From positions 1 to 64,000 of the forward strand of contig NZ_JALBWV010000004.1 of the NCBI RefSeq assembly GCF_022678645.1: a DNA stretch of 64,000 bases, read 5' to 3'. This DNA is from Saccharopolyspora soli. Lineage in GTDB: Bacteria; Actinomycetota; Actinomycetes; Mycobacteriales; Pseudonocardiaceae. This document shows positions 2,047-41,706 of the stretch, one piece after another. Position numbers and translations under genes: made by a program. The notes below the pieces were generated by a model. That model was not told the origin of the DNA and searched no databases. It saw nothing but the letters and a program-made list of their open reading frames with translations. Positions within the stretch are counted from its first letter, which is position 1, and each line of letters opens with the position of its first letter.

Positions 2047-2198
2047 AGCAAGGGAACCTTCCTGCCACCGCCCACACGCAGTCGGGCGCCCGCACGCCGA
2101 TCGGAGAACGGGAACCTTCCGGTCCGCTGAGCGCGCAGCGGCACCGCACTGACCGCAGCAAGGGAACCTTCCTGTCACTCAACGGCCGGAAGGTTCCC
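2047..2198. repeat. GGGAACCTTCC repeat cluster between convergent SDR and nucS
   Basis: Three forward copies of the dispersed element lie here. The core at 2052-2067 has one change (CCTGCCA), the copy at 2110-2120 keeps only the left 11 bases, and the core at 2162-2177 is perfect. An inverted partial copy at 2188-2198 (GGAAGGTTCCC) pairs with the third to make an 11-bp stem with a 15-base loop. Its place between two gene 3' ends suggests a bidirectional terminator or mRNA-end structure. Confidence 0.85.
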
Positions 2199-2318
2199 GT
2201 GCGGTTGGAAGGCGCTAGAAAAACGACAGGTGCGCCAGCACCCGAGCTGCTCACCAGGCGGCTGGTCGACGATGCCGCCACCTACAGCCGGGTACGAACA
2301 CCTCGAATCGGGCGTCGA

Positions 2319-2978
2319 TCAGAACAGTCGGTACTCGTCCGATTCGATGCCGCGCAGCTTGTCGTAGTCCAGGACCACACATCGGATCCCGCGGTCTTCG
2401 GCCAGGGTGCGGGCCTGCGGCCGGATCTGCTGCGCGGCGAACACCCCGGCTACCGGTGCCAGCAGCGGGTCGCGGTTGAGCAGTTCGAGGTAGCGGGTCA
2501 ACTGCTCGACACCGTCGATCTCGCCGCGCCGCTTGATTTCGACCGCCACGCTCGCGCCTCCCGCGTCGCGGCACATCAGGTCCACCGGACCGATCGCGGT
2601 CGGGTACTCGCGACGCACCAGCGACCAACCGTCGCCGAGGGTCGTGACGTGCTCGGCGAGCAACTCCTGCAGATGCGCCTCCACACCGTCCTTGACCAGG
2701 CCCGGCTCGACCCCCAGCTCGTGCTTGGAGTCGTGCAGCACCTCCTCGACGGTGATCACCAGCTTCTCACCGGCCTTGTTCTGCACCGTCCACACGCCCG
2801 GATCCTCGATCAGCCAGCACGGCGGGCTCATCCAGTTCAACGGCTTGTAGGCCCGGTCGTCGGAGTGCACCGACACCGATCCGTCGGCTTTCACCAGCAG
2901 CAGGCGCTGCGCCATGGGCAGGTGCGCGGTGAGTCGGCCGACGTAGTCCACCTTGCAGCGGGCAATGACGAGTCGCAC
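2319..2978 (-). CDS. nucS: NucS/EndoMS mismatch-specific endonuclease
   Basis: 219-aa nuclease of the archaeal/actinobacterial NucS family, which cuts both strands at mismatches and replaces MutS-MutL in most actinobacteria. The N-terminal DNA-binding part contains the highly conserved stretch around [13 protein letters not shown]. The C-terminal RecB-like nuclease domain shows [10 protein letters not shown] and [18 protein letters not shown], with the acidic and Lys metal-site residues present. I chose GTG 2978 because the family begins with (M)RLVIA. The C-terminus ends in YRLF, resembling the sliding-clamp motif known for the family. In mycobacteria nucS also lies near the atp-murA region, so the context fits. 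Confidence 0.95.
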
Positions 2979-3099
2979 CCGGCACAGAGTACGGGCGTCG
3001 ATCGAGAAGTCGAGCACCCCCGTGGCGCACCGGCCGAGATCACCGGTTCGGACACCTCGGACCTCGATCTTCCCGCTCATCGAGTTACCGTTACGCCCC

Positions 3100-4512
3100 G
3101 TGTCATTCGCCCGAACCTTGCTTCGCGTCAAGCCCGCCGAGCAACTCGCCGACGAAGGCTCGCACACCCAACTGCGCCGGACCCTCGGCCTGGTGCCGCT
3201 GGTGGCGCTGTCGGTCGGCGCGACGCTCGGCACCGGGATCTTCGTGGTGCTCGCCGAAGCGGCACCGGCAGCTGGTCCCGCCGTGGTCGTCTCGTTCGTG
3301 CTGGCCGGGGTGGCCGCGCTCTGCTCCGCGCTGTCCTACGCGGAGCTCGCGGGCAGCGTGCCGGTGTCCGGTTCGGCCTATTCCTACGCTTACGCCACGC
3401 TCGGCGAGCTGGTCGCCTGGATCTGCGGCTGGTGCCTGCTGCTGGAGTACGGGGTGTCGGTCGCCGCGGTCGCGGTCGGGTGGGGCGGTTACCTGAACGA
3501 ATTCCTGCAAGGCACCATCGGCGCCACCATCCCGGACGCCTTCGCGGCGCCGCCCGGCGACGGCGGAATGATCAACTTCCCGGCAGCGCTGATCGTGCTG
3601 CTCGCCATGGGCGTGCTGCTGCTGGGCGTGCGGGAGAGCGCGCGAGCTACCACGATCACCACACTGCTCAAGATCGCCGTGCTGGTGTTCTTCTTCGCCG
3701 TGGCGATCACCGCGTTCCGCTCGCAGAACATGACCCCGTTCGCCCCGGCGGGCTTCGCTGGCATCTCGGTTGGCGCCTCCGCGGTGTTCTTCTCGTTCAT
3801 CGGCTTCGACGCGGCCTCCACCGCAGGTGAGGAAGCCTGCAACCCGTCCCGTGACCTCCCGCGCGCGATCATCCTGTCGCTGGGCATCGTCACCGCCGTC
3901 TACGTGTTGGTCGCCTTCGCCGCAGTCGGTGCGGTCGGCGTCGGCGTGCTCGGCGAATCCGATGCGTCGCTGGCCACCGCGCTGCGCATCGTGACCGGCC
4001 AGGGCTGGTCTTCGGTGGTGCTCGCGTTCGGTGCCGTGATCGCCATCGCCTCGGTGGTGCTCACCGTCCTGTACGGGCAGACCCGGATCCTGGTGTCGAT
4101 GTCCCGCGACGGGCTGATGCCCGGCATGTTGTCCCAGGTGAACCGGCGTGCCGTACCGGCTCGCAACACGCTGGTGGTCGGCATCGTGGTGGCGTTGCTC
4201 GCCGCCGTGGTGCCGCTCGACCAGCTCGCCGAGGCGACCAGCATCGGCACCCTGGTCGCCTTCGGGCTGGTCAACATCGGTGTGCTGGTGCTGCGCCGCA
4301 CCCGGCCCGAACTGCCGCGCAGCTTCCGCACTCCGCTGATGCCGTTGGTGCCGCTGCTCGGCTTGGCCCTGTGCGTGTACCTGATCGTCGGCCTCGACGC
4401 GATCACCTGGCTGACCTTCGCGATCTGGACCGTGGTCGGCCTCGTCGTGTACTTCGGCTACGGCCGCCGCAGATCCAAGCTCAACCACCCCCAAACCGAG
4501 CCGACGAAGTGA
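3100..4512 (+). CDS. APC superfamily amino acid permease
   Basis: 470-aa integral membrane protein with about 12 hydrophobic segments. The APC signature is near the N-terminus ([20 protein letters not shown]), where the glycine-rich unwound helix 1 binds the substrate backbone. It looks most like the cationic amino acid transporter (CAT/YfnA) branch, but I cannot assign a substrate. I chose GTG 3100; no strong ribosome-binding site is visible, so the true start could differ by a few codons. It is divergent from nucS (121-base gap) and converges with the glucosidase with a 4-base gap. Confidence 0.85.
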
Positions 4513-4516
4513 GCGG

Positions 4517-6148
4517 TCAGCGCGGACGCAGCCAGGCGGTCGTGTTGGCAGGAAGAGTGCTCGTTTCCAGCGGGACGCTCGACAGCAGGACTTCGCCGTC
4601 CGGGAGTGGGATGGCGGTGGCGCCGGTGTTGACCAGGACGAGGATGCTGTCCGCCCGGCGGAACGCCAGCACGTCCCCGATGTTGTACTGGTCGTCCCAG
4701 CGGAATGTCTCGTCGCCGCCGAACTCCCGGCGGACGCGCAACGCCGTTCGGTAGAGCTCCAACATCGAGTCGGGGTCATCCCGCTGCACTTCGACCGCGT
4801 ACTCGCCCCAGTCGGCGGGTTGCGGCAGCCAAGGTGCCGCGCTGCTGAAACCGAAGGCCACCCCGGTCCTCGTCCACGGCAGCGGCACCCGGCAACCGTC
4901 GCGGCCCTTCTCCTTGTGCTGGGAGCGCACCCACTTCGGGTCTTGCAAGACCCCCGCGGGTAGGTCCGCGACCTCCGGCAGCCCCAATTCCTCGCCCTGG
5001 TAGAGGTATGCGGAACCGGGCAGCGCCAGCGCGAACAAGATCGCCGCGCGAGCCCGCCGGGTGCCCAGCTCAAGATCGGTCGACGGTTCGGTGCCGTTGG
5101 TGGCCAACCAGACCCGCAGGTCGACGTCGTCCGGCAGCCCCAGCGCCGACACCTGTCGCACCACGTCGTGGTTGGCCAGCACCCAGGTCGCGACCGTCCC
5201 CACCGAGCGCGCCCCGGCGATCGACTCCGCCACGATCCGCCGATACTCGGCGGCATTCCAGCGAACCCGCAGGAACTCGAAGTTGAACGCCTGCTGCAGC
5301 TCGCCCGGCCGGATGTAGCGGACCCGCCGGTCACCGCGCACCCACGCCTCGGCGACCCCGATCAGCGGCGGATCGAACTCGTGGAACACCCGGTTCCACT
5401 CCCGGTACACGTCGTGCACCTCGGGCCGATCCAGGAACGGGTGGTCGGGGTTGGCGGCGAAGTCGTCCAGCCCGCTGCTGCCTTCCCCGCCGACCACGTC
5501 GCGCAACGGCTCGCGCAGGTCTTTGATCAGGGCCGCGGCCACGTCGATCCGGAAACCGTCGACACCACGACGCCCCCAGAAGCGCAGGATGTCCAGGAAT
5601 TCCGCGCGCACCTCGGGGTTTTCCCAGTTGAGGTCGGGTTGTTCCGGGGTGAACAGGTGCAGGTACCACTGGCCGTCCGCCACCCTGTGCCAGGCACGGC
5701 CGCCGAAGCGGGATTCCCAGTTGCTCGGCGGGTTTTCACCGGCTGGTCCCTTGCCGTCGCGGAAGATGTAGCGATCGCGCGCCGGGGAACCGGGTTCGGC
5801 GGCCAGCGCCCGTTGGAACCACTCGTGCCGGTCGGAGGTGTGGTTCGGGACGATGTCGATCAGCACCCGGATGCCGCGCTCGTGCGCGGCGGCCAGCATT
5901 CGGTCGAAGTCTCGCAGGGTGCCCAGCGCGGGGTCGATGTCGCGGTGGTCGGTGATGTCGTAACCGCCGTCGAGCCAGCGCGACCGGTAGCACGGAGTCA
6001 GCCAGATCGCGTCCACGCCCAGCCAGGCCAAGTAGTCCATCTTGGACGTTATTCCGGGGAGATCGCCGATGCCGTCGGCGTTGGTGTCCGCGAAGCTGCG
6101 GGGGTAGATCTGATAGGTGACCGCGCTTCGCCACCAGGTCTCTGGCAC
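4517..6148 (-). CDS. GH13 alpha-glucosidase (oligo-1,6-glucosidase type)
   Basis: 543-aa retaining glycoside hydrolase acting on alpha-glucosidic bonds, with no signal peptide, so cytoplasmic. GH13 regions in order are DIVPNHTSD near the N-terminal third, GFRIDVA with the nucleophile Asp about 202, GVAEAW with the acid/base Glu, and ANHDV with the third catalytic Asp. Length and the YQIYPRSFADTNADGIGDLPG-like start match the alpha-glucosidase/oligo-1,6-glucosidase subfamily. The GTG start at 6148 follows GAGGAGGGAG. No sugar transporter or LacI regulator lies next to it, so it appears to act alone. Confidence 0.92.
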   Translation of the reverse strand: MPETWWRSAVTYQIYPRSFADTNADGIGDLPGITSKMDYLAWLGVDAIWLTPCYRSRWLDGGYDITDHRDIDPALGTLRDFDRMLAAAHERGIRVLIDIVPNHTSDRHEWFQRALAAEPGSPARDRYIFRDGKGPAGENPPSNWESRFGGRAWHRVADGQWYLHLFTPEQPDLNWENPEVRAEFLDILRFWGRRGVDGFRIDVAAALIKDLREPLRDVVGGEGSSGLDDFAANPDHPFLDRPEVHDVYREWNRVFHEFDPPLIGVAEAWVRGDRRVRYIRPGELQQAFNFEFLRVRWNAAEYRRIVAESIAGARSVGTVATWVLANHDVVRQVSALGLPDDVDLRVWLATNGTEPSTDLELGTRRARAAILFALALPGSAYLYQGEELGLPEVADLPAGVLQDPKWVRSQHKEKGRDGCRVPLPWTRTGVAFGFSSAAPWLPQPADWGEYAVEVQRDDPDSMLELYRTALRVRREFGGDETFRWDDQYNIGDVLAFRRADSILVLVNTGATAIPLPDGEVLLSSVPLETSTLPANTTAWLRPR

Positions 6149-6669
6149 GCTCCCTCCTCGGCTGGATGTCGGCGCGGCGCATCTCGACCTGCCCGGTTCT
6201 ATGTGGCCATCCCCGCGCTCGTCGAGTGTGCGGGCTGCGTTTCGGATGTCAAACCGGTCTTGCTCGCGCTTCGGAGGGCGTGTCCTCGATGCGGCCGTGC
6301 GGTGCTCGATCCGATCTGGAGTGGGCTCCTCGGGTTGCGCGGCCGGGTGGCGGGCTTGGCGTTTGCCGTTGCAGGGCTTGGATTTCGCACTCGGACGTGC
6401 ATGTTCACCTGATCAAGCGATCGAAAAAAGAATGCAAACAGTTGTTCGAGTACGGGATGATTGTGGCATGACTGCACTGACGAACACCCAGTACCCGACT
6501 GCGGAGACGCCACCGCAGTCGGCGGTGGCGTCGTGTTCCGAGGCCCTGCCATCCAAAACCGCGCGATCATCGAACAGCATCTCCGCCCCCCGCGCGGGTA
6601 TGCGAGCACGCCTGCGGCATGACCGGGCCGTGTCGACCGATCGTGCCCGGTGTCCGGCACCATGGCCGC
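6149..6669. other. 521-base intergenic region between divergent glucosidase and Nudix genes
   Basis: No convincing gene is found. It should hold the glucosidase promoter (minus) and the Nudix promoter (plus), but I see no clear -35/-10 pair. A short AT-richer stretch lies at about 6410-6470. The notable structure is the pair of overlapping hairpins at 6495-6532. Confidence 0.5.
6495..6532 (+). promoter_or_regulatory. Two overlapping, mutually exclusive hairpins upstream of Nudix gene
   Basis: CCGACTGCGG (6495-6504) pairs perfectly with CCGCAGTCGG (6513-6522). GACGCCACCGC (6506-6516) pairs perfectly with GCGGTGGCGTC (6522-6532). The two stems share bases, so only one can form at a time. No U-run follows, so a classical terminator is not indicated. 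A function as a leader switch is speculative. Confidence 0.4.
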
Positions 6670-7209
6670 ATGCAGCAGACGAGCAGCCGCGAGGTGTACG
6701 CCAACCCTTGGATGGTCGTTCGCGAGGACGGCATTCGCCGGGCCGACGGGTCCGAGGGGATCTACGGCGTCATCGACAAGCCGGATTACGCACTGGTTAT
6801 TCCGCTCGACGGCGATCGGCTTCACCTCGTCGAGCAGTTCCGCTACCCGCTGGACCTGCGGCGTTGGGAGTTTCCGCAGGGCACCGCGCCGAACCGGCTC
6901 GACGTCGAGCCAACCGAACTGGCCGCGCGGGAACTGCGGGAGGAAACCGGGCTGCGGGCCGCGAAGCTCGTCGAGATCGGCACCCTCGACGTGGCGCCTG
7001 GTATGTCCAGTCAGCGCGGCCGGGTGTTCCTGGCAACCGGTCTCACACCGGGCGAGCCAGCACGCGAGTTGGAGGAGCAGGACATGCGGACCGGCTGGTT
7101 CCCCAGGACCGAGTTCGAGAAGATGATCTCAGCAGCGGAGATCACCGATGCCCAGTCGATCGCCGCCTACACCCTGCTGCTCCTGCACGAACGCCGGAAT
7201 CCGGGCTGA
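6670..7209 (+). CDS. Nudix hydrolase (ADP-ribose pyrophosphatase-like)
   Basis: 179-aa protein with the Nudix helix RELREETGL and a preceding FPQG strand, as in NudF-type ADP-sugar pyrophosphatases that hydrolyse nucleoside diphosphates linked to another group. The metal-binding REUxEE part is intact. The left part of the Nudix box is shortened: the usual GE pair before it is missing, so the G-x5-E spacing is not canonical. I chose ATG 6670 because the longer in-frame extension upstream has no conserved character. The gene converges with the ABM gene with no gap. Confidence 0.85.
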   Translation: MQQTSSREVYANPWMVVREDGIRRADGSEGIYGVIDKPDYALVIPLDGDRLHLVEQFRYPLDLRRWEFPQGTAPNRLDVEPTELAARELREETGLRAAKLVEIGTLDVAPGMSSQRGRVFLATGLTPGEPARELEEQDMRTGWFPRTEFEKMISAAEITDAQSIAAYTLLLLHERRNPG

Positions 7210-7527
7210 TCACAGCCCGACGCCACCGAGCGTGGTCACATCAACGCGCTCCGGTGGCTTCGCCAGCATTCCGAGCACGCTTTCGATGCTGACGTCCCCA
7301 CCGGATTGCGCGGCCGCGGCCAGCGCGGCATCGGCGCTGGCTTCATCCGCCCACGCCTCGACCACTCGCACCGTGTCCGGGTCATCGGAATCCTGACTGA
7401 TGACGTAGAGCTCGCAGTCCGGCACCTCCCGCAGACCTTTGGCCACCTGCAACATCACGGCTGCGAGCTCGCCACCTTTGCCCGGCTTCGCGGTGAAGGC
7501 CATCAACCGGCCGTACTTCTCTGACAT
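7210..7527 (-). CDS. Antibiotic biosynthesis monooxygenase (ABM) domain protein
   Basis: 105-aa single-domain protein of the dimeric alpha/beta ABM fold, also called quinol monooxygenase-like. Visible features are the N-terminal strand GRLMAFTAKPG, the central CELYVISQDSDDPDTVRVVEAW core and a C-terminal helix. These proteins oxidise small aromatics without a cofactor or detoxify quinones; the substrate here is unknown. The ATG at 7527 is preferred over the longer upstream start, because the family normally begins just before the first strand. It lies 34 bases downstream of ehuA and could be its last operon gene. Confidence 0.75.
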   Translation of the reverse strand: MSEKYGRLMAFTAKPGKGGELAAVMLQVAKGLREVPDCELYVISQDSDDPDTVRVVEAWADEASADAALAAAAQSGGDVSIESVLGMLAKPPERVDVTTLGGVGL

Positions 7528-7561
7528 CGGCTGAACTCTAGCCGCCGCAGCCGACAACTCG

Positions 7562-8353
7562 TCAGGCTTCCTCCAACACCGACCGCAAGAATTTGCGCGT
7601 CCGCTCCTGCTCCGGCCTCTCGAACAACTCGTCGGGCGGTTTGTCCTCGATGATCTTGCCGCGGTCGAACATCAGCACCCGGTCCGAGACGTCGCGGGCG
7701 AACTTCATCGCATGCGTCACGCACAGCATCGTGATGTCGCTCGTGTTCGCGAGATCTCGCAGCACGTCGAGCACCTCGGCGGCCAGTTCGGGGTCCAGGG
7801 CCGAAGTGATCTCGTCGAGCAGCAGCACGTCCGGGCTCATCGCCAGCGCGCGGGCGATCGCCACGCGCTGCTGCTGGCCACCGGACAGCTGCGTCGGATA
7901 GGCATCGATCTTGTCGGCCAGGCCGACCATTTCCAGCAGTTCCCGTGCGCGTCGCTCGGCGTTCGCCGGGGACTGGCCGAGTACGTGGATCGGGGCTTCG
8001 GTGACATTGCGCAGCACCCGCATGTTAGGGAACAGGTTGAACTGCTGGAACACCATGCCGATTCGCTTCCGCACCGTCCGCAGGTGCTTCTCGTCGGCAA
8101 TCACCAGGCGCTCGCCTCGGCGCACGTGGGTCAGGCACTCGCCCCCGACGTGAATCCTGCCGCCGTCGACCCGTTCCAAGGTCATCAGCAACCGCAGGAT
8201 CGTCGTCTTGCCCGATCCGCTCGGCCCGATCAGGGTGACCCGCTCGCCCGGCTGGACCGCGAAGTCCAACTCGTCGAGGACCACGTTGTCGCCGAACCGC
8301 TTGATCACCCGGTCGAACCGGATCATGTGCTGGCCGTTCTCAGATCCCAACAC
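7562..8353 (-). CDS. ehuA: Ectoine/hydroxyectoine-type ABC transporter ATPase (EhuA-like)
   Basis: 263-aa ABC ATPase of the polar amino acid family. Walker A is GPSGSGKT, the Q-loop is QQFNLFP, the signature is LSGGQQQR and Walker B is LLLDEITSALD. It energises uptake through the two permeases encoded just upstream. The GTG start at 8353 has GGAGG ten bases before it and overlaps the ehuD 3' end by 14 bases; ATG 8326 is an alternative. The ehu assignment rests on gene order B-C-D-A and overall similarity. Another polar amino acid substrate is possible. Confidence 0.82.
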   Translation of the reverse strand: MLGSENGQHMIRFDRVIKRFGDNVVLDELDFAVQPGERVTLIGPSGSGKTTILRLLMTLERVDGGRIHVGGECLTHVRRGERLVIADEKHLRTVRKRIGMVFQQFNLFPNMRVLRNVTEAPIHVLGQSPANAERRARELLEMVGLADKIDAYPTQLSGGQQQRVAIARALAMSPDVLLLDEITSALDPELAAEVLDVLRDLANTSDITMLCVTHAMKFARDVSDRVLMFDRGKIIEDKPPDELFERPEQERTRKFLRSVLEEA

Positions 8354-8990
8354 GGCGTTCCAACCTCCGCACCAACAGCGATGACGGGTAGCTCAGCAGC
8401 AGGAAGCAGATGCCCGCCAGGGTGAGCGGCTCGACGTACCGGTAGGCGTCCGATCCGGCCTCCTGCGCCGCTCCCACCAAGTCGAGTACCCCGATCGCTA
8501 GCAGCAGTGGCGTTTCCTTGAACATCGAAATCGTGTAGTTGCCCAGCGCGGGCAGCACCCGCGGAATCGCCTGCGGGAGGATCACGCTCGTCCACACCCT
8601 GCGAGTGGGCAGGCTCAGCGCCGTCGCCGCCTCCCACTGGCCGCGCGGCACACCTTCTATCCCGGCTCGGTAGACCTCGGCGGTGTAGCAGGCGTAGTGC
8701 ACGCCGAGCCCGATCACCCCGGTGGTCAGCGAGGAGAACCGCAGGCCGATGTCCGGCAGCACGTTGAACAGGAAGTACAGCTGCACCAACAGCGGCGTGC
8801 TGCGGACGAACTCGATGAACAGCCAAACTGCCCGGCTGACCAGCCGAATCCGCGAACGCCGCAGCAGGGCCAGCACGAGACCGAGCACGAACGCCACGAT
8901 CGAGCCCAACACGGTCGCCTCGAAGGTCACCACCAGACCGCCGAGGATGTCCGGAATGATGCGCCCGGTGAACTCCCAGTCCCAGATCAT
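8340..8990 (-). CDS. ehuD: ABC transporter permease (EhuD-like)
   Basis: 216-aa inner-membrane permease of the His/Glu/Gln/ectoine family, with about five hydrophobic segments. The family features VRSTPLLVQL and the cytoplasmic EAA loop (GVPRGQWEAATAL...) that docks on the ATPase are both visible. Its ATG directly abuts the ehuC stop codon, so the two permeases are translationally coupled and probably form a heterodimer. It lies in the ehuB-C-D-A operon. Confidence 0.85.
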   Translation of the reverse strand: MIWDWEFTGRIIPDILGGLVVTFEATVLGSIVAFVLGLVLALLRRSRIRLVSRAVWLFIEFVRSTPLLVQLYFLFNVLPDIGLRFSSLTTGVIGLGVHYACYTAEVYRAGIEGVPRGQWEAATALSLPTRRVWTSVILPQAIPRVLPALGNYTISMFKETPLLLAIGVLDLVGAAQEAGSDAYRYVEPLTLAGICFLLLSYPSSLLVRRLERRVGI

Positions 8991-9704
8991 CTACACCGCC
9001 CCGCCTTCGACCCGGCCCAGGGCCTGCGCCGGTTCGACGGGCGTGCGGCCGACGGCCGCCGCGGCACGCCGTTCCAGGACGCGCATCACCGTCGTGATCA
9101 GCACCGACAGCACCAGGTACAGCGCCAGCATCAGCAGGTAGATCAGCGCGGTCTGGCCGGTGAAGTTCGGTTCGAGGACATCCCGGCCCTGGTAGGCGAT
9201 ATCGTGCACGAAGATCAGGGACAGCAGCGAACTGCTCTTCAGCAGTTGGATGAACAGGTTGTTGAACGGTGGGATCATCTCCACCATCGCCTGCGGCAGG
9301 ATCACCCGCCACATCCGCTGCACCGCGCTGAAGTTCAGCGCGACCGCGCATTCGTACTGCGCTTTCGGCACCGCTTGCACCGCGCCCCGCACTATCTCGC
9401 CGCCGTATGCGCCGTGGTTGAGACCTAGCACGAGGATGCCCGCCCAAAGCGGCAGCAGTTCGAAGCCGACCAGCAACGGCAACGCGAAGAAGATCCAGAA
9501 CAGTTGGACCACTTCGGACGTGCCGCGCCAGACCTCGACGTAGACGCGCGCGATGACCCGCACCCACCGCCACGGCGACAGCATGCCGAGCCCAGCGATG
9601 AACGACAGCACGATGCACAGCGCGATGCCGCACAAAGTCGCGATCACCGTCGCGGGCACGCCTTGCAGCAGGACCGAGAGGAAGTGCGAGAAGTTCGCGA
9701 ACAT
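8991..9704 (-). CDS. ehuC: ABC transporter permease (EhuC-like)
   Basis: 237-aa membrane permease paired with EhuD. It has an N-terminal hydrophobic region, the WRGTSEVVQLFW motif and an EAA loop (AVPKAQYECAVALN). I chose ATG 9704 because GGGAGG precedes it by four bases. A GTG at 9734 would add ten residues and overlap the binding-protein gene. It is encoded immediately after ehuB. Confidence 0.85.
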   Translation of the reverse strand: MFANFSHFLSVLLQGVPATVIATLCGIALCIVLSFIAGLGMLSPWRWVRVIARVYVEVWRGTSEVVQLFWIFFALPLLVGFELLPLWAGILVLGLNHGAYGGEIVRGAVQAVPKAQYECAVALNFSAVQRMWRVILPQAMVEMIPPFNNLFIQLLKSSSLLSLIFVHDIAYQGRDVLEPNFTGQTALIYLLMLALYLVLSVLITTVMRVLERRAAAAVGRTPVEPAQALGRVEGGAV

Positions 9705-9726
9705 GCCGCCTCCCGCCACGCCGTGC

Positions 9727-10641: not shown

Positions 10642-10726
10642 CGCCCCTTCAAAGCGGGAGCAGGGTCTCCGCCTATGGTCAGGGCCAAAGTTGTGATTTG
10701 CATCACGAAACCGGTAGTGGAACGGC

Positions 10727-12040: not shown

Positions 12041-12124
12041 GCATGGGAACCTTCCTGTCATCCAAAGGCCACCGTGCTCGGCTCCGCCGCCCCGCACACG
12101 TGCAGCATGGGAACCTTCCTGTCA
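12041..12124 (+). repeat. Two direct copies of the dispersed repeat in the murA-pduO divergent gap
   Basis: Perfect cores occur at 12045-12060 and 12109-12124, both preceded by GCAT and both in plus orientation. The second ends 42 bases before the ATG of the adenosyltransferase, so it probably lies in that gene's promoter or 5' leader. This is one of only two repeat loci not between gene 3' ends, and there is no inverted partner to make a hairpin. Confidence 0.85.
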
Positions 12125-14689: not shown

Positions 14690-14690
14690 A

Positions 14691-14736
14691 GCATGGGAAC
14701 CTTCCTGTCAGCCACGTGACAGGAAGGTTCCCTTGC
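14691..14736. repeat. Perfect inverted pair of the dispersed repeat (hairpin)
   Basis: A forward core at 14695-14710 and an inverted core at 14717-14732 are perfect complements over 16 bases, with a 6-base loop GCCACG. The flanking GCAT and TTGC keep the extended consensus. It starts two bases after the LysR stop codon and lies 50 bases from the end of the convergent DUF2550 gene. It is probably a terminator or mRNA 3'-end stabiliser for the plus-strand gene. Confidence 0.9.
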
Positions 14737-14750: not shown

Positions 14751-14779
14751 AAAAAAGCGGGGTCCGTTGTGGACCCCGC
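14751..14779 (-). terminator. Rho-independent terminator of the atp operon
   Basis: On the minus strand the hairpin GCGGGGTCC-ACAAC-GGACCCCGC is followed directly by six Ts. It lies seven bases after the DUF2550 stop codon. This is a classical intrinsic terminator closing the atpB-to-DUF2550 transcript. Confidence 0.9.
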
Positions 14780-14785
14780 TGCCGG

Positions 14786-26396: not shown

Positions 26397-26523
26397 GCAA
26401 GGGAACCTTCCTGTCACCAGCGGCACGACGGATGCGAGCAAGGGAACCTTCCTGTCACACGCGCCCCAGCCGTGACGCCGCGAGCATGGGAACCTTCCTG
26501 TCACTTTTGGCACGGGAGTTCCC
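26397..26523. repeat. Three direct copies plus one decayed inverted copy of the dispersed repeat
   Basis: Perfect forward cores are at 26401-26416, 26442-26457 and 26488-26503, spaced 41 and 46 bases. A degenerate inverted partner (GGGAGTTCCCATGC) begins at 26514 and could fold back on the third copy. The cluster lies between the 3' ends of the convergent hydrolase and prmC genes. The intervening segments differ in sequence and length. Confidence 0.88.
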
Positions 26524-29029: not shown

Positions 29030-29225
29030 CGGCTTGTCCTCTCTTCTTGGCCGCCGGGTCCACGCGGCCGCTGCCGCGCGGTGAACCGGTGCCGGATCAG
29101 CCTTGCATTCTGCCAGACCAAGGCTCGTGACCTGCAACGCAGGGGGTCCGTCCGGTATTCCGGGCAGCCGCTCGGCGCGCCTGCGTTACCGCCCGGCGCA
29201 GCAGAGGGACCGCCTGCCGAGCCGG

Positions 29226-29690: not shown

Positions 29691-29788
29691 GGAAGGGAAC
29701 CTTCCTGTCATTTTCGTGACAGGAAGGTTCCCATGCTCCGGTCAGTGCGGGGTCGGCCGTGTTCGGGGTGACAGGAAGGTTCCCTTGC
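29691..29788. repeat. Hairpin pair plus one inverted copy of the dispersed repeat
   Basis: The forward core 29695-29710 and inverted core 29717-29732 form a perfect 16-bp stem with loop TTTTCG. A further perfect inverted core lies at 29769-29784. The cluster begins at the stop codon of the plus-strand membrane protein and ends 77 bases short of the rho stop codon. Confidence 0.9.
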
Positions 29789-32274: not shown

Positions 32275-32435
32275 CAACCCCCTGGGCGCGTGGCACGCCC
32301 TAGTCGGTCGTGCCGTCGACCACGTCTGGTGTGTGCCACTGTCAGCCGCCGACGACACCTCCTTTGTACCACCCCGCCGCAAGGCTCCTGTTCCGGGGCC
32401 GTGAACAGGGCTTTCGTCCCGGTTGACGGCTCCGG

Positions 32436-34435: not shown

Positions 34436-35736
34436 GACGGTTCACCTTCCACGCGCATCACGCTGACCACCTCGCGCACCACCGGGAGCTGCGCGATCTT
34501 GTCCACAGTGGACTTCAATGCCGCGTCGGGCGCGGTGTGGGTGACCACCACGAGGCTGGCCTCCGCGCCCCGACCCTGCTGACGCACCACCGAAATGCTC
34601 ACATCGTGCTCGTTGAACGTGGCCGCGACCTGCGAGAGCACGCCCGGTTTGTCGGCCACGTCGAGGCTGATGTGGTAGCGGGTCGGGGTCTTGCCCATCG
34701 GGCGCATCGGCAGCTGCGCGTGCGCGGACTCCCGCGGTCCCTTGCCCGCCACAACCAGGTTACGAGCCACCGCGACCAGGTCGCCGAGAACGGCGCTGGC
34801 CGTCGGCGCACCCCCGGCGCCCTGCCCGTAGAACATCAGCTGACCGGCGGCCTCGGCCTCCACGAACACCGCGTTGAACGCGTCGCCCACCCCCGCCAAC
34901 GGGTGGCTGCGCGGGATCATCGCCGGGTGCACGCGGGCGGACACCGATTCGGTGCCGTCCTCGTCGACCACCCGCTCGCAGATGGCCAGCAGCTTGACCG
35001 TGCGGTCCAGGGTGCGTGCGGCCGCGATGTCGCCGGGCGTGACCGCCGAGATGCCCTCGCGGTGCACGTCGCTGGCGGTGACCCTGGTGTGGAAGGCCAG
35101 CGACGCCAGGATGGCGGCCTTCGCGGCGGCGTCGAACCCGTCGACGTCGGCGGTCGGGTCGGCCTCGGCGTAACCCAGCCGACCGGCCTCGTCCAGCGTT
35201 TCGGAGTAACCGGCGCCGGTGGAGTCCATTGCGGACAGGATGTAGTTCGTGGTGCCGTTGACGATGCCGATGACGCGGTTGATCCGGTCCCCGGCCAGCG
35301 ACTCGCGCAGCGGCCGCAGCAGCGGGATCGCCCCGGCGACCGCCGCTTCGAAGTAGATGTCGGCGCCCGCGGCGTCGGCCGCCGCGTAGAGCTCGGAGCC
35401 GTGCTCGGCAAGCAGCGCCTTGTTGGCCGTCACCACCGACTTGCCGGACCTCAGCGCGCTCAGCAGCAGCGAGCGGGCCGGTTCGATGCCGCCGATCAGC
35501 TCGACGATGACGTCGACATCGCCGTCCACCAGCGCCTGGGCGTCCGTGGTGAGCAGGTGCTGGGGCACTCCCGGGTGCTTGTGCGGGCGGCGCACCGCCA
35601 CCCCGGTCACCAGCATCGGTGCCCCGGTTCGCGCGGCGAATTCCTCCGGTTGGTCCTGCAACAGCCGCAGCACCTCGGTGCCCACGGTTCCGCACCCCAA
35701 CAGCGCGACCCTGATCGGTTCACGGTCCTGGATCAC
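34432..35736 (-). CDS. hom: Homoserine dehydrogenase
   Basis: 434-aa monofunctional enzyme reducing aspartate semialdehyde to homoserine. The NAD(P)-binding loop is GCGTVGTEV. The catalytic region includes [11 protein letters not shown] and the [19 protein letters not shown] motif. A C-terminal ACT domain ([22 protein letters not shown]) predicts allosteric inhibition by threonine. Its GTG directly follows the lysA stop codon. Confidence 0.97.
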
Positions 35737-37155
35737 TCACACCTCCAGCCGGAGCAGGTCGTCCTCGGTCTCCCTGCGCAGCAGCAACCGCGCCTGACCA
35801 GCATGAACCGCCACCACGGGCGGTTTGGGCAGGCGGTTGTAGTTGCTGGCCATCACGTAGCAGTACGCGCCGGTGGCGGCCACCGCGAGCAGGTCTCCTG
35901 GAGCAATGTCCTCTGGAAGCCAGCAATCGCGCACCACTACGTCACCGGATTCACAGTGTTTGCCCACGATGCGGGACAGCACGGCGGGCGCCTCGGCGCT
36001 TCGGGAGACCAGCCGGGCGTCGTAGACGGCGTCGTAGAGCGAGGTGCGGATGTTGTCACTCATCCCGCCGTCCACGCTGACGTAGCGCCGCTGCACGTCG
36101 CCGCCGAGCGCCACGTCCTTGATGGTGCCGACCTCGTAGACGGTCACCATGCCCGGCCCGACGATCGCGCGGCCGGGCTCGACGGCGATCTTCGGCACCG
36201 GGATGCCCGCGTTGTCGGCTTCCTTGCCGACGATCTCGTGCAGCCGAGTGGCCAGTTGGGCTGGCGGCAGCGGATCGTCCTCGGCGGTGTAGGCGATGCC
36301 CAGCCCGCCACCGAGATCCACAGTGGACGCGCTGGCCAGCGCGTCGGCGCCGTGCTCCTCGCGCAGCTCGGCCAGCAGCCGGACCACCCGGTGCGCGGCG
36401 AGTTCGAAACCGTCCACGTCGAAGATCTGCGAGCCGATGTGGCTGTGCAGACCGGCCAGCACCAGCGAGTCGGTCTTCAGCACCCGGTGCACCGCCTCGG
36501 CGGCCTGCCCGCCCCCCAGCGAGAAACCGAACTTCTGGTCCTCGTGCGCGGTCGCGATGAACTCGTGGGTGTGCGCCTCCACACCGACGGTGACGCGCAC
36601 CAGCACGTGCTGCTGGACGTCGTGCTCGGTGGCGATGTGGTCCAGCCGGGCGATCTCGTGGAACGAGTCCAGCACGACGGAACCGACCCCTGCTTCGACC
36701 GCGGCGGTCAGCTCGGCGACGGACTTGTTGTTGCCGTGGAAGGTGATCCGCTCCGGCGGGAATCCGGCGCGCAGCGCCACGGCCAGCTCACCGCCGCTGC
36801 ACACGTCCAGGCTCAGGCCCTCTTCGGCGACCCACTTCGCGACTTCGGTGCACAGGAACGCCTTCGACGCGTAGTGCACCGCCGCCGGGTCGCCCAAGGC
36901 GTCGGCGTAGTCGCGGCAACGGGATCGGAAGTCGTCTTCGTCGAGCACGAACAGCGGCGTGCCGAAGCGTTCGACGAGTTCGCGGATGTCGATCCCGGCG
37001 AACCGGACGACGCCGTCGGTGCCGCGCTCGCAGCTGCGCGGCCACACCTGCGGGTGCAGCAGGTCGAGCTCTTCGGCGCTGGCCGGAACGGGTCCTGCGG
37101 TGTTGCCGGGTGGCACGACGTCGGCGTGCCGGGGCCCGGCGGGATGGGCGCGCAT
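35737..37155 (-). CDS. lysA: Diaminopimelate decarboxylase
   Basis: 472-aa PLP enzyme of fold type III catalysing the last step of lysine synthesis. The PLP lysine is in [10 protein letters not shown]; the substrate/PLP motifs [28 protein letters not shown] and the C-terminal CESGDVV are present. The N-terminal about 25 residues (proline-rich) extend beyond the conserved core, so a shorter start is possible. It is co-transcribed upstream of hom. Confidence 0.96.
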
Positions 37156-37219
37156 CTACAGCTCCTTCGCGCAGCCTGCCGCTCGACAGGCCATTGGTAC
37201 GTTCATCTCCTCGCGGGCA

Positions 37220-38881
37220 CTACATCTGGTCCGGAGCGCTGACACCGAGCAGCGCGAGACCGTTCGCGATGACCTGGCGGGTCCCCTCGCACAGCTGCAA
37301 CCGGGCGATGGTCAACGGGCTCACCTGGTCGTCGCCGGGCTGCAGCACGCGGCACGCGTCGTAGAACTTGTGGTAGGCGGCGGCCACGTCCTCCAGATAG
37401 CGGGCCACCCGGTGCGGTTCCCGCAACTGGGCGGCCGAGAGCACCACGCGCGGGAATTCGCCGAGGGTGCGGATCAGGTCGCCCTCACGTTCGTGGGTGA
37501 GCAGCGACAGGTCGGCTTCTTCCACCGGTCCTCGTTCGATGCCGAGCGAGGCGGCGTTGCGCTGCAACGAGGACAGCCGGGCATGCGCGTACTGCACGTA
37601 GAAGACCGGGTTCTCGTTGGTGCGCTTGCTGATCACGTCCAGGTCGATGTCCACTGCGGAGTCCGCGGAGGACCGGACCAGCGAGTAGCGGGCGGCGTCC
37701 ACCCCCACCGCGTCGACCAGATCTTCCATCGTGACAACGGTGCCCGCGCGCTTGCTCATCCGCACCGGCTTGCCGTCGCGCACCAGGTTCACCAGCTGTC
37801 CGATGAGGACTTCGACCACGGCCGGGTCGTCGCCGAGCGCCGCCGCGGCGGCCTTGAGCCGGGCGATGTAGCCGTGGTGGTCGGCGCCCAGCACGTAGAT
37901 GCACAGGTCGAAGCCGCGGTTGCGCTTGTCGCGCAGGTAGGCGACGTCACCGGCGATGTAGGCGGGCTCGCCGTCGCTTTTGATCAGCACCCGGTCCTTG
38001 TCGTCGCCGTACTCGGTGGAGCGCAGCCACCAGGCGCCGTCGGAGAAGTACAGGTGACCGGATTTCTTGAGCTTCTCGACGGATTCGGCCACCGCACCGG
38101 AGGTGTGCAGCGAGTCCTCGTGGAAGTACACGTCGAAGTCGGTGCGGAACTCGTGCATGCTCTGCTTGATCTCATCGAACATCAAGCCCACGCCGATGCG
38201 GCGGAACGTCTCGTGGCGCTGCTCGGCGGGCAGTTCCAGGGCGTTCGGCTCGGCCTTGAGCACCGCGGCGGCGATCTCGCCGATGTAGTCGCCGCCGTAG
38301 CCGTCCTCTGGGGTGGGCTCGCCCTGCGCGGCGGCGATCAGGGACCGGACGAACCGGTCGATCTGCGCGCCCGCGTCGTTGAAGTAGTACTCGCGGGTCA
38401 CCGCGGCGCCCTGCGCGGCCAGCACTCGACCGAGCGCGTCGCCGACCGCCGCCCACCGGGCGCCGCCCAGGTGCATGGGACCGGTCGGGTTGGCCGAGAC
38501 GAACTCCAGGTTCACGTTCAGACCCGCGTACCGCTGGCCGCGCCCGTAGTCCGCGCCCCGGTTGAGGACCTCGCGCACGATCTGGCCCTGCGCGTCGGCG
38601 GCCAGCCGCAGGTTGAGGAAGCCCGGCCCGGCGACGTCGGCGGCGTCGATGGCGTCCTGCCCGGTCAGCGCCTCGGCCAGCCAGCCTGCGAAATCCCGGG
38701 GCGATACGCCGAGCCGCTTCGCGACCTGCATCGCCACGTTGGTCGCGTAGTCGCCGTGCGCCGGGTTGCGGGGTCGCTCGACCGTCACCGCCTCGGGCAG
38801 CACGGAGGTGTCCAGGTTGCGGGCGGAAAGCACCTCGACGGCGGTGTTGCGAACCAGTTCTGCGAGCGCGGCGGGAGTCAC
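37220..38881 (-). CDS. argS: Arginyl-tRNA synthetase
   Basis: 553-aa class I synthetase charging tRNA-Arg. The HIGH motif is GPMHLGG within [14 protein letters not shown], and the KMSKS-like motif is RMSKRAG. The C-terminal DALR anticodon domain ([10 protein letters not shown]...) ends [13 protein letters not shown] 38881 is the start. It is first in the argS-lysA-hom-thrC-thrB block and is divergent from the DUF3105 gene across 214 bases. Confidence 0.97.
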
Positions 38882-39095
38882 CTTATGCAGTCTAAGGAAG
38901 CGTCACCGCTGTTCAGCGAACGGGTTGGGCAGGCCAGCGGCGGACACGACACGCCGTGTGATCGAACCATCACGCAGATGTGAGAACGTGTGGTGGCGAG
39001 CATTGGACGAGCGGTCACCCGCCGCGCCCGCAATCTCTAGACTGGCGTGCCGGGTCCACCCGGTGTTTCTTGGCGAGACGAGGTTTGCGAACAGC

Positions 39096-39881
39096 ATGGC
39101 GAACAGGAAGAGCAAAGCGGTGCGCGGCGCCGTGGTGCATCAGCGGTCGATCCCCTGGATGCTGATCTCCGGAGTCACCGTCGTAGCGGTGTTCGCGGCC
39201 GTGATCTTCGGGTACGCGTACAGCCGGTGGTCGGCGCAGGAGTCCGTCCGGCAGGCCCAAGCGGCGGCGGAGGCGGCAACCGCCGCGTTCAAGCCGTCCC
39301 CGCAGAACCCGGACCCGTCCAAGACGATCCCCGGCATCACCATCGTCAACTACCAGGGGCAGGTCCACATCCGCTCGGACCAGCGCGTGGCCTACGACCA
39401 CACCCCGCCCTTCGGCGGCCCGCACGACGGCATCTGGGCCGACTGCACCGGCGTGGTCTACCCGGAGGCGGTGCGCACCGAGAACATGGTCCACTCGCTG
39501 GAGCACGGCGCGGTGTGGATCGCCTACAACCCGGATCGGGTCGACGAGGCAGGCCTGGCGCGGCTCAAGGCGCGGGTCGAGGGCAAGCCGTACACGATGA
39601 TGTCGCCGTATCCAGGCCTGGACAGCGCGATCTCGCTGCAGTCCTGGGGTCACCAGCTCAAGGTCGACAACGCTGACGACGCGCGCATCGACCAGTTCAT
39701 CACCGCGCTGCGGTTGAACAACAACGGCGTCTACCCCGAGGTCGGCGGCTCCTGCCAGGCATACCCGGGCGCGTTCGACACGAACAACCCGCCGAAGTTC
39801 GACGCCGCACCGCCGGGCCCGGACGCGGTCACCATGGACGGCCGCGGCGCCACGGCGGCCACCGGCGAGATGGGCCAGTGA
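39096..39881 (+). CDS. DUF3105 membrane-anchored protein
   Basis: 261-aa protein with a short basic N-terminus, one transmembrane segment (about residues 20-42) and an extracytoplasmic domain. The family core contains DHTPPFGGPHDGIW, then HSLEHGAVWIAY and YTMMSPYPGLDS. DUF3105 has no established function, although the conserved His and Cys residues suggest metal or thiol chemistry. ATG 39096 begins MANRKSKAVRG. It is followed after three bases by a DUF305 gene, a common pairing in actinobacteria. Confidence 0.9.
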   Translation: MANRKSKAVRGAVVHQRSIPWMLISGVTVVAVFAAVIFGYAYSRWSAQESVRQAQAAAEAATAAFKPSPQNPDPSKTIPGITIVNYQGQVHIRSDQRVAYDHTPPFGGPHDGIWADCTGVVYPEAVRTENMVHSLEHGAVWIAYNPDRVDEAGLARLKARVEGKPYTMMSPYPGLDSAISLQSWGHQLKVDNADDARIDQFITALRLNNNGVYPEVGGSCQAYPGAFDTNNPPKFDAAPPGPDAVTMDGRGATAATGEMGQ

Positions 39882-39884
39882 GCG

Positions 39885-40562
39885 GTGTCCGGTGACGCAC
39901 CTGCCGCCCGGCGATCGCTGCCGGTGCGGATCTTCGTGGCAGTCGCGGCAGCGCTGGCACTGCTGTTGTTGGGGGCGGCGCTCGGTCTGCTGATCCGGGT
40001 GCCGTCCTTCGACCGCGCCGAACCGCAGCCGACCGCGGTGGACATCGGGTTCGCGCAGGACATGACGATGCACCACCAGCAGGCCGTGACCATGGCGACG
40101 CTGGCGCGCGAGCGCGCCACGGACGTCGCAGTGCGGCAGTTGGCGTTCGACATCGAAACCAACCAGCGCGATCAGATCGGTCGGATGCAGGGCTGGCTGA
40201 GCCTGTGGGGCCAACCCGCGCAGGCCACCGGCCCGCTGATGCAGTGGATGACCCCGGACGGCGGCCACGACCACAACGCCGCTGCGACCGGTGCACCGTC
40301 GGGCGGGCTGATGCCCGGCATGGCCACCAGTGCGGAGATGTCCCGCCTGCAGTCGCTGCGCGGACCGGAGTTCGACGTCTACTTCCTGCAACTGATGCTG
40401 CGGCACCACCAAGGCGGCGCCGAGATGGCCGAGTACGCCTCGGTGCACGCGGCGCTCCCAGCGGTGCGCGAGCTGGCGAAGAACATCCTCGGCTCGCAGA
40501 GCAACGAGAGCACCCTCATGCGCACCATGCTCACCGAACGAGGCGCCCAACCCCTCGGCTGA
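39885..40562 (+). CDS. DUF305 protein, membrane-anchored and His/Met-rich
   Basis: 225-aa protein with an N-terminal transmembrane anchor (FVAVAAALALLLLGAALGLLI) and two DUF305 repeats of ferritin-like character: FAQDMTMHHQQAVTMA and FLQLMLRHHQGGAEMA. Clusters of His and Met, including a GHDHNAA linker, suggest metal binding outside the membrane; copper has been proposed for relatives. It is translationally linked to the DUF3105 gene and convergent with a CDF metal exporter. Confidence 0.9.
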   Translation: MSGDAPAARRSLPVRIFVAVAAALALLLLGAALGLLIRVPSFDRAEPQPTAVDIGFAQDMTMHHQQAVTMATLARERATDVAVRQLAFDIETNQRDQIGRMQGWLSLWGQPAQATGPLMQWMTPDGGHDHNAAATGAPSGGLMPGMATSAEMSRLQSLRGPEFDVYFLQLMLRHHQGGAEMAEYASVHAALPAVRELAKNILGSQSNESTLMRTMLTERGAQPLG

Positions 40563-40566
40563 CCGC

Positions 40567-40644
40567 AGCAAGGGAACCTTCCTGTCACCCCAACCCCAGG
40601 GACACCCACGCCCGCTGACGTGAGCATGGGAACCTTCCTGTCAC
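40567..40644 (+). repeat. Two direct copies of the dispersed repeat between convergent DUF305 and CDF genes
   Basis: Perfect forward cores lie at 40572-40587 (preceded by GCAA) and 40628-40643 (preceded by GCAT), starting ten bases after the DUF305 stop codon. No inverted partner is present, so no long hairpin forms here. Confidence 0.88.
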
Positions 40645-40656
40645 ATCCGGCGGCGG

Positions 40657-41574
40657 TCACCAGGTCAGGGCTTGGCAGCGCTTGGCGCATTCGGCGGGTT
40701 CGACCTGCAGGGTGGCGTGGTCGATGCGGTAGCGCTCGGCCAGCAGGCGCTGCGCCGCCACCAGCACGCCGCCGTGATCGGCGGCCGCGTCGGTGGTCAG
40801 GTGGGCTGAGGCGACCTCCATGCCGGATGTGAGGGTCCACACGTGGAGGTCGTGCACCTCGGTGACCGACGGCAGCGCGGCGAGGTCGGCCCGGAGTTCC
40901 CGCACGTCGACTCCTTCGGGAGCCTGCTGGACGAGGATCCGCAGGGCTTGGCGTGCCAGCTTCCAGGTGCGCGGTAGCACGAAGAGCCCGACTGCGACCG
41001 CGACGATCGGGTCAGCGAGGTACCAGCCGAACGCCCAGGTCACCGCGCCGCCGATCAGCACGCCGACGGAACCGATGGTGTCCGCGAGAACCTCCAGGTA
41101 GGCCCCGCGCACGTTCAGGCTCTCGTTGGCGCCCCGCCGCAGCAGTGCGAAGACCACGAGATTGGCGACCAACCCGGCTGCGGCGGTCAACATCATCGGC
41201 ACACCGGCGATCTCCGGCGGCTCCTGAAACCGGGCGATGGACTCGTAGAGGATGTAACCGGCGACGGCGAACAGCAGCACGGCGTTGGCGAGCGCGGCCA
41301 GCACCTCCATGCGGTACAGCCCGAAGGTCCGCTTGCCCTCGACCGGTCGACGCGCAGCCGTGATCGCGGCCAGCGCCATACCCACGCCGAGCACGTCGGT
41401 GAGCATGTGTCCGGCGTCGGACAGCAGTGCCAGCGAGGACGTGTAGAACCCGACGAGTGCTTCGAGCACGAAGAACGCGAGCAGGATCGCGAACGACGCA
41501 GCCAACCGCCGCACGTAGCGGCCGGATGCGCTGACCGCATCAGCGGCCGTACCGTGCCCGTGCCCCTGACCCAT
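40657..41574 (-). CDS. Cation diffusion facilitator metal exporter (CzcD/ZitB type)
   Basis: 305-aa proton-coupled exporter of Zn2+ or related divalent cations. It has a His-rich N-terminus (GHGHG), six predicted transmembrane segments, the metal-site helices SLALLSDAGHMLTDV and YLEVLADTIGSV, and a C-terminal cytoplasmic domain with EVHDLHVWTLTSG and SAHL. ATG 41574 follows AGGAGGAC. It is convergent with the DUF305 gene. It is the last protein gene before the tRNA. Confidence 0.92.
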   Translation of the reverse strand: MGQGHGHGTAADAVSASGRYVRRLAASFAILLAFFVLEALVGFYTSSLALLSDAGHMLTDVLGVGMALAAITAARRPVEGKRTFGLYRMEVLAALANAVLLFAVAGYILYESIARFQEPPEIAGVPMMLTAAAGLVANLVVFALLRRGANESLNVRGAYLEVLADTIGSVGVLIGGAVTWAFGWYLADPIVAVAVGLFVLPRTWKLARQALRILVQQAPEGVDVRELRADLAALPSVTEVHDLHVWTLTSGMEVASAHLTTDAAADHGGVLVAAQRLLAERYRIDHATLQVEPAECAKRCQALTW

Positions 41575-41661
41575 CGGCTGTCCTCCTCACGTCGACCCCT
41601 GACATATAGTGAAATATGCATGATTGCAGGTGTCAAGCGCGGCGGCCGAGCCCATGACGCG

Positions 41662-41706
41662 AGGAAGGGAACCTTCCTGTCAACCGTGACAGGAAGGTTC
41701 CCTTGC
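41662..41706. repeat. Perfect inverted pair of the dispersed repeat upstream of tRNA-Arg
   Basis: The forward core 41667-41682 and inverted core 41687-41702 form a 16-bp stem with a 4-base loop (ACCG). It lies between the divergent CDF gene and the tRNA. This is the rightmost copy in the window. Confidence 0.9.

Follow-up and report, generated by a model that had tools for sequence, protein, structure and literature searches.

What is the short repeat that fills the gaps between genes in a contig of Saccharopolyspora soli, and what keeps it there? The window analysed here is a stretch of 64,000 nucleotides (64 kb) of contig C129, part of the 9.35-Mb S. soli genome assembly of 184 contigs. The core of the repeat is the 16-mer GGGAACCTTCCTGTCA, and 15 exact copies of it were counted in the window (11 forward, 4 reverse). 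When up to three mismatches were allowed, 18 matches were found in seven intergenic loci, and shuffled DNA gave 0.34 on average and 3 at most. About a hundred intergenic copies lie in one stretch of the chromosome, and the same stretch carries them in relatives, which suggests that a putative protein marks this piece of the chromosome. The reading we prefer, held tentatively and at slightly less than an even chance, is that the copies are sites of a putative DNA-binding protein marking a chromosomal domain, like MatP/matS in logic but not in membership.

The repeat is confined to one zone of the chromosome. All the 102 exact copies of the 16-mer in S. soli (58 + 44) are on contigs C129, C133 and C163, and the pattern read backwards has no match in this genome. 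A degenerate 16-mer, GGGAACYTTYCTGYCA, was used to compare zone and whole-genome counts. All of its 119 matches in S. soli fall on the same three contigs, which synteny joins into a zone of about 0.3 Mb. This is about three percent of the chromosome, and about 97% is without the repeat. The related genome G014 carries 112 of its 112 copies at 3,856,801-4,144,528 (288 kb) of an 8.126-Mb contig, G006 all 82 within 231 kb, and G003 all 58 within 203 kb. In the genus g68, G161 has all of its 83 copies inside 180 kb, and G177 all of its 64 inside 136 kb. For G034, 32 of 37 copies are inside the 120 kb that were fetched; of the other five, three are unplaced, and the remaining two map to 3.853 Mb, just beyond the fetched stretch, and to 4.712 Mb, a long way from it. 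The preliminary description had regarded the repeat as a genome-wide family, which the placement in one zone contradicts in S. soli, G014, G006, G003, G161 and G177 (in G034, at least one of 37 copies is far outside); a genome-wide family of repetitive extragenic palindromes (REPs) or terminators is ruled out by the same placement. The 13-mer core AAGGGAACCTTCC was distributed similarly, with 19 of 20 matches in the zone or at its edge in G014, 46 of 47 in G006, 29 of 29 in G003 and 6 of 7 in G034. The exceptions are single matches at 5.126 Mb (G014), 8.647 Mb (G006) and 4.712 Mb (G034). Separately, a facing pair of the 13-mer core was seen at 3399-3438 of S. soli contig C12, which is unplaced relative to the zone (among the matches listed, with 104 13-mers in the genome).

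The zone itself is the same region in three genera. By tblastn with zone genes, C129 (reversed), C133 and C163 are collinear with 3.86-4.16 Mb of G014, as well as with the corresponding zones in G006, G003 and G034. In g68, loci of 3 kb each were examined in four genomes (many overlapping, those of G143, G177 and G192 from one end of the list); all 30 carry genes of this zone, and so does a second 40-kb block of G161. The gene content includes nucS, rho, prmC and a murA-like gene. The origin-side and terminus-side sites, parS-like and dif-like, were located by matches to consensus sequences. The distance from parS to the zone centre is about 1.0 Mb in G003, 1.2 Mb in G006 and 0.9 Mb in G034, which places the zone about 0.26-0.36 of the way from parS to dif in these genomes. 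In G003 and G014, about 2.2-2.9 Mb separate the zone from candidate dif sites, and no exact parS match was found in G000, G004, G008 or G014. Because it lies 0.9-1.2 Mb from parS and part way to dif, the zone is neither origin nor terminus.

The copies also stay at the same gene junctions. Gaps of more than 30 bp conserved with G014 were compared, and a copy was accepted with up to three mismatches. Between G014 and S. soli, 25 copy-bearing junctions are shared, one has copies only in G014 and none only in S. soli. The corresponding numbers are 22, 0 and 1 for G006, 3, 0 and 6 for G034, and 3, 1 and 1 for G010. Divergence from G014 at four-fold sites is 35% for S. soli, 33% for G006, 36% for G003 and 21% for G013. 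Where a G014 junction holds the exact 16-mer, an exact 16-mer is also present at 21 of 24 junctions in S. soli, 18 of 21 in G006 and 7 of 19 in G003. A single neutral copy would stay unchanged with a probability of 0.1% at 35% divergence (0.1-0.2% over S. soli and G006); setting junction counts against this per-copy rate is approximate, since a junction often contains more than one copy. In eight junctions that were aligned, the copies align and most of the surrounding intergenic DNA does not. The copies are thus probably under selection, because 21 of 24 orthologous junctions stay exact when about 0.1% would be expected per neutral copy.

The spread of the repeat follows the genus with a few extensions. 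The degenerate 16-mer was matched in 28 of 297 genomes of the family: 21 of 22 of Saccharopolyspora, G034 (the sole sample of its genus), 4 of 6 of g68, and two genomes with a single copy. The exact 16-mer was found in 20 of 61 near relatives, in 2 of 38 genera, and in 19 of 22 genomes within Saccharopolyspora. A scan of a genome collection gave at least 114 loci, of which at least 91 are from Saccharopolyspora (at least 221 copies) and at least 23 are scattered in other bacteria with one copy each. The genome G019 has 6 copies. G013 has no match to the degenerate 16-mer in the whole genome, and one copy with one mismatch was found in the 67 kb of its zone that were read. In a seven-protein tree, rooted by choice on G034, with partial data for S. 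soli and G161 and weak deeper nodes (38-83), G013 is the sister of G014 with a support of 100 and is nested among carriers. Copies persist at 1 of 7 G014 junctions in G013, 1 of 4 in G019 and 0 of 11 in S. erythraea, which may either have lost the family or never had it. At a four-fold divergence of 21%, 56% of the G014 copies are expected to remain within three mismatches in G013, and they were seen at 1 of 10 junctions. In the eight aligned junctions, G013 is shorter in seven and longer in one, and one of them holds a palindrome that is maybe a remnant. With the degenerate 16-mer absent from G013, the sister of G014, the repeat may depend on something acting in trans.

A replacement motif was looked for in two genomes without the repeat. 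The syntenic stretch of S. erythraea gave only small families of 10- to 12-mers with 5-11 copies, and in 67 kb of G013 the pair-forming GAGGACCCTCC has 4 copies; neither looks equivalent. The small intergenic families of the S. erythraea zone (L237-L242, L325-L331) are built around CCGCAAGGCCAG and GGCGAGCGCCCCAG, with 5-11 copies. The syntenic zone on contig C127 of G013 (L226-L229) has two facing pairs of GAGGACCCTC at about 4.8 and 6.7 kb.

The unit is larger than the 16-mer. It is an imperfect dyad of about 27 bp, roughly GTGNNAGSAAGG-GAA-CCTTYCTGTCAC, and the consensus of six genomes shows a partial dyad around GAA with 40-50 bits over 33 positions. The symmetry is partial, with 9-13 of 16 offsets matching depending on the genome. 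Position -3 varies between C and G (C in 63%) and position -1 between A and T. Such variation would be tolerable to a protein that reads the groove, and C at -3 would break a simple hairpin pair. Species-specific subtypes of the repeat were also seen. Nearly all copies of G034 and many of G003 are facing pairs of one geometry, built around a short palindrome such as CACCGGTG or CACATGTG, and G161 also has the unit as perfect 29-bp tandems.

Neighbouring copies keep preferred distances. In S. soli, 61 neighbouring pairs are direct, 19 facing and 1 divergent. Measured between dyad centres, facing neighbours are 29-31 bp apart in 16 of 19 cases in S. soli, 5 of 8 in G014, 8 of 13 in G006, 14 of 19 in G003, 14 of 14 in G034 and 10 of 10 in G161. 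Direct neighbours in G161 are at 29 bp in 19 of 25 cases. In S. soli, 10 of 61 direct neighbours are at 41-42 bp and 16 at 52-53 bp, and in G006 the numbers are 11 and 6 of 30. In G014 (n = 63), 17 are at 41-42 bp, 7 at 52-53 bp, 7 at 31 bp and 7 at 37 bp. The peaks at 41, 42, 52 and 53 bp in S. soli and G014, each with at least three cases, come from 3 to 10 separate junctions each, mostly with unrelated spacers. Pure helical phasing at 10.5 bp was tried and rejected: it beats jittered nulls in four genomes (0/5000 to 0.0018), yet it is not the best period.

From these observations we infer the protein, its binding and its domain function. A sequence-specific and probably dimeric putative DNA-binding protein would bind the imperfect palindrome of about 27 bp, and side-by-side binding on the DNA would favour preferred distances between neighbouring dyad centres. 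The protein would coat, bridge or anchor one stretch of 0.1-0.3 Mb on one chromosome arm and so define a domain; it would act on that stretch only, because the arrays are confined to it. The placement mainly behind genes would then reflect avoidance of promoters and coding DNA rather than a 3'-end function. With no orientation preference in S. soli and no RNA structure in three direct arrays of the window, a function at the DNA level seems probable. A more specific version is rather doubtful: the Saccharopolyspora group would have a lateral macrodomain, distinct from origin and terminus, with a dedicated protein assembling side by side on intergenic arrays of the 27-bp dyad, and loss of the protein would lead to the loss of about a hundred sites together.

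Several results weigh against the domain-marking reading. Retention is poor in G003, where 10 junctions are shared with G014, 10 have copies only in G014 and 1 only in G003, so that copies are missing at 10 of 20. Most genera of the family, S. erythraea and G013 live without the repeat. The loss in G013 outpaced neutral decay, and orphaning of the site would not by itself account for this. The spacings form no clean 10.5-bp ladder: the best-fitting periods are 11.3-12.6, and further peaks occur in G014 (37 and 46 bp). A rung common to direct and facing neighbours is clear only in G161 (29 bp) and weak at 31 bp in G014. Copies in tandem junctions of G014 lean to the transcribed direction (49 same versus 22 opposite). 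Facing pairs of one geometry, such as the 14 of 14 neighbouring pairs of G034, also suit a mobile palindromic element. Finally, the search for a binding protein found none: no DNA-binding gene is common to all the carriers compared and missing from the copy-free S. erythraea counterpart. This comparison took in most of the zone, reaching over 6.96-7.22 Mb of S. erythraea and stopping short of the C163 end, together with a portion of the G013 zone, and some of the zone genes were domain-scanned.

One gene and a group of regulator-like genes came up in this comparison and were rejected as a zone-encoded factor. The sole gene present in all the carriers compared and yet strongly diverged in S. 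erythraea is at 110474-111283 of C129 (L041). Its protein is fast-evolving (47-68% identity to the counterparts of five carriers, 34% to that of S. erythraea), and by eye it has an apparent signal peptide; it is no candidate. Its neighbours, judged by eye, are presumably a TetR-like gene and a small chaplin-like open reading frame. Genes that look like regulators by eye and are missing in S. erythraea (C129 78022-78714; C133 2739-3311 and 5891-6481) are only in some of the carriers.

The strongest rival explanation, which we regard as unlikely though worth keeping in view, is local breeding of selfish palindromes: a transposase-like gene, since lost or unrecognised, was once in the zone or acted on it and made REP-like copies nearby, which are now fixed relics or under local turnover, as published for some REPs. 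The facing pairs, the 29-bp tandem expansion in G161 and the species-specific subtypes suit an element with turnover, and the near-total loss in G013 suits the loss of a source. The closest published case is the accumulation of REPs near rayt genes, as given in the available text of PMC2817692. A REP-associated tyrosine transposase (RAYT) acting in trans had been proposed in the preliminary description, and the search does not bear this out. Of 10 genomes searched for the transposase domain Y1_Tnp (PF01797), six gave no match (G003, G004, G010, G014, G019 and G034), five of which are rich in the repeat (G003, G004, G010, G014 and G034), G019 having its 6 copies. The domain was found in G000, G006, G013 and G033; the carriers S. 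soli and G006 have matches, and so do G013 and S. erythraea, both without the repeat. No transposase-looking gene common to all the carriers compared was found in the compared part of the zone, for which the domain scan was partial. The stability of position between S. soli and G014, with one junction lost and none gained, is also hard to fit with breeding. The gene islands of the zone would be open targets, yet 5 of their 85 junctions carry copies, compared with 94 of 321 between core genes and 41 of 140 mixed ones. Finally, for three genera to share the zone, the element would have to be very old or to have entered at the same place more than once. The domain-marking site is favoured over breeding because the positions are conserved, the islands are largely empty, the spacings are preferred and no enzyme was found.

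Less probable by a clear distance is a passive relic, in which an ancestral regional family without function is slowly lost and reshaped by slippage and short-range conversion between neighbours. Consistent with this, copy number varies between orthologous junctions, and arrays have like spacers (1.00 at 29 bp in G161, n = 24; 0.91 at 41 bp in G006, n = 3; in G014, 1.00 at 41 bp, n = 1, and 0.76 at 37 bp, n = 3). A relic does not account for the 21 of 24 junctions with exact 16-mers when about 0.1% is expected per neutral copy, and, at 16-27 bp, the sites offer little length for homologous conversion.

The placement of the copies and their RNA structure bear on the last explanation, that they work at the 3' ends of genes. 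The seven loci of the window, with two further features, are as follows.

2052..2198, both strands: locus 1, exact copy at 2162-2177 (+) and degenerate copies at 2052 (+), 2110 (+) and 2183 (-); convergent SDR / nucS junction.
12045..12124, + strand: locus 2, direct pair with a spacing of 64 bp; the junction is divergent and lies upstream of a murA-like gene of the EPSP-synthase family.
14695..14732, both strands: locus 3, perfect inverted pair, loop of 6 bases; between the LysR and DUF2550 genes.
14756..14780, - strand: terminator-like hairpin with a T run (canonical, consensus match), adjoining locus 3 and separate from the repeat.
26401..26503, + strand: locus 4, three direct copies with spacings of 41 and 46 bp; hydrolase / prmC junction.
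29695..29784, both strands: locus 5, perfect inverted pair and a third inverted copy; junction with rho.
40572..40643, + strand: locus 6, direct pair with a spacing of 56 bp; between the DUF305 and cation efflux genes.
41667..41702, both strands: locus 7, perfect inverted pair, loop of 4 bases; flanked by the cation efflux gene and a tRNA gene.
42050..64000: copy-free stretch, with no match within three mismatches in the window.

The names nucS and rho are those of the preliminary description, whose labels SDR, LysR, DUF2550, hydrolase, PrmC, DUF305 and cation efflux were all matched by Pfam. Homologues of nucS are present in 18 of 18 genomes searched, and the open reading frame beside rho had no Pfam match. 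The recount agreed with the 15 perfect copies (11 forward, 4 inverted) at seven intergenic loci described before, and the three perfect 16-bp inverted pairs with 4-6-base loops were recovered at 14695/14717, 29695/29717 (6-base loops) and 41667/41687 (4-base loop). About four degenerate copies had been listed, and three lie within three mismatches (2052, 2110 and 2183). The orthologous junction of locus 2 also holds 2 copies in G014 and in G006. The hairpin at 14756..14780 is also present in G014 and G013, judged by eye in the junction alignment. Contig C129 has no exact copy between 41.7 and 75.9 kb, the next being at 75,905, and most genes of its copy-free stretch have no equivalent in the zones fetched from relatives. 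In the window, Rfam gave two matches at gathering score, a tRNA and an L31 leader, and neither is the repeat; the latter is the L31-Actinobacteria ribosomal protein leader (RF03158) at 29049-29095 on the - strand.

The rule that convergent junctions carry the repeat, as first proposed, was true for one part of the window. All five convergent gaps above 30 bp in 1-42 kb have copies, and none of four has them in 42-64 kb; the three convergent junctions with gaps of 4 bp or less are empty, as had been described. Using our own simple gene caller, on which the placement counts rest, 34 of the 102 exact copies in S. soli were assigned to convergent junctions, 52 to tandem and 12 to divergent ones, and 4 lie wholly inside called genes (2 of 73 in G014). 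C129 has 2.6 copies per kb in convergent, 1.1 in tandem and 0.2 in divergent junctions, and G014 has 2.4, 1.4 and 0.8 in the same order; the values are 0.4, 3.9 and 2.2 on C133 and 0, 2.6 and 0.8 on C163. With tandem junctions the densest on C133 and C163, the convergent rule applies, as a tendency, to only part of the zone. What stands of the positional rule is a real, intergenic, maintained family mostly on the 3' side of genes, which is not limited to convergent junctions (locus 2 is divergent, and locus 7 precedes a tRNA gene). Copies in tandem junctions are nearer to the upstream stop in 108 of 141 cases. Relative to transcription, they have no preferred orientation in tandem junctions of S. 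soli (34 same, 36 opposite).

The loci also differ in RNA structure. Folding is strong for the window's three perfect inverted pairs (z scores of -6.8 to -9.1), with locus 1 at -3.8, and the three direct-repeat loci fold no better than shuffles (z -1.1 to 0.5). Against the terminator-like reading of the preliminary description, only loci with inverted copies are structured, the direct loci are not, and orientation is untied to transcription in S. soli, though copies in G014 lean to the sense direction. As a family, the copies do not form the G+C-rich hairpin followed by a T run that defines an intrinsic terminator. Between 12.0 and 31.9 kb, 7 terminator-like sites were found versus 7.7 in shuffles, and one of the 7 overlaps a repeat copy. 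That the copies are 3'-end elements, namely terminators or mRNA-stabilising hairpins homogenised in one region, is the least probable of the explanations, in spite of their position behind genes, the dense convergent junctions of C129 and G014 and the three folding pairs: S. soli neighbours are mostly direct, strand preference is absent there, C133 is densest in tandem junctions, hairpins of other sequence are already in the rho and DUF2550 junctions, also in the repeat-free G013 (by eye), and about 97% of the chromosome doing without the repeat is left unexplained.

A second palindromic repeat, GATTTCMATKGAAATC, often paired 24 bp apart, was noticed in G014, where it has 801 matches on both strands. 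It is also present in G004, G006, G012 and G013, with no match in S. soli, G003, G033, G034 or G161. In G014, 2 matches are in the zone versus about 28 expected from the genome mean, and none is in the 100 kb around dif. Its half-sites, TTTC-N4-GAAA, resemble ParB-family sites.

To our knowledge, sequence signs that single out one chromosomal domain come from few systems, all concerning the terminus or the origin. A sign in the middle of an arm, kept at the same junctions in different species and lost as a set in one lineage, would, if true, be a handle on the partitioning of large actinobacterial chromosomes, and the repeat would also serve as a probe for fishing out the putative protein. If local transposition is the right explanation, the repeat would exemplify regional breeding of unusual age and stability. 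A search of open PMC papers, with subscription papers outside it, found no description of the repeat. The transcriptional macro-regions of S. erythraea have been described, and the available part of that paper does not mention the motif (PMC3610266).

Among the known systems, REPs are extragenic imperfect palindromes of 20-40 bp (PMC3733652, in part), often with more than 100 copies in inverted and tandem arrangements, and can accumulate locally within about 200 kb of rayt (PMC2817692, in part). The repeat is likewise a short, extragenic, high-copy imperfect palindrome (119 degenerate copies, 4 of 102 exact ones wholly in genes, a partial dyad). No cognate RAYT (Y1_Tnp) gene was found in five copy-rich genomes, and the copies are in one zone rather than spread over the genome, although exceptions with local spread are published (PMC2817692, available text). 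No GTAG-type tag is in the six-genome consensus, the CGTC class (PMC3733652, in part) being outside this comparison. Unlike REPs and bacterial interspersed mosaic elements with RAYT, the repeat keeps its positions between species. Some of its inverted pairs are strong hairpins at convergent gene ends, like intrinsic terminators. Unlike these, the repeat has mostly direct neighbours in S. soli, is unstructured in the direct loci tested, and occupies one region only.

The ram sites of Bacillus subtilis are a centromere-like motif bound by the oligomerising RacA, by which DNA is condensed and tethered (PMC6593407, as far as the available text goes). They resemble the repeat as a motif at high density in one region. 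Unlike the repeat, they are dense near the origin and also occur elsewhere according to the same partial source, and the repeat zone is about 1 Mb from parS. In Escherichia coli, the 13-bp matS has 23 repeats within Ter, and MatP binds only there (PMC3116907, in part). The repeat is like matS in being a short palindromic site with tens of copies in one domain, with a distribution conserved among relatives: it is restricted to one domain, and this restriction is kept between species in the same syntenic zone of three genera. The outer bases of matS, GTGAC...GTCAC, are found also around the right half of the repeat, and around both halves in G034. Unlike matS, its zone is mid-arm and not around dif, its site is longer (about 27 bp) and arranged in arrays, its hosts are Actinobacteria and its protein is putative. 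By analogy, matS and ram would be the closest functional parallels of the repeat.

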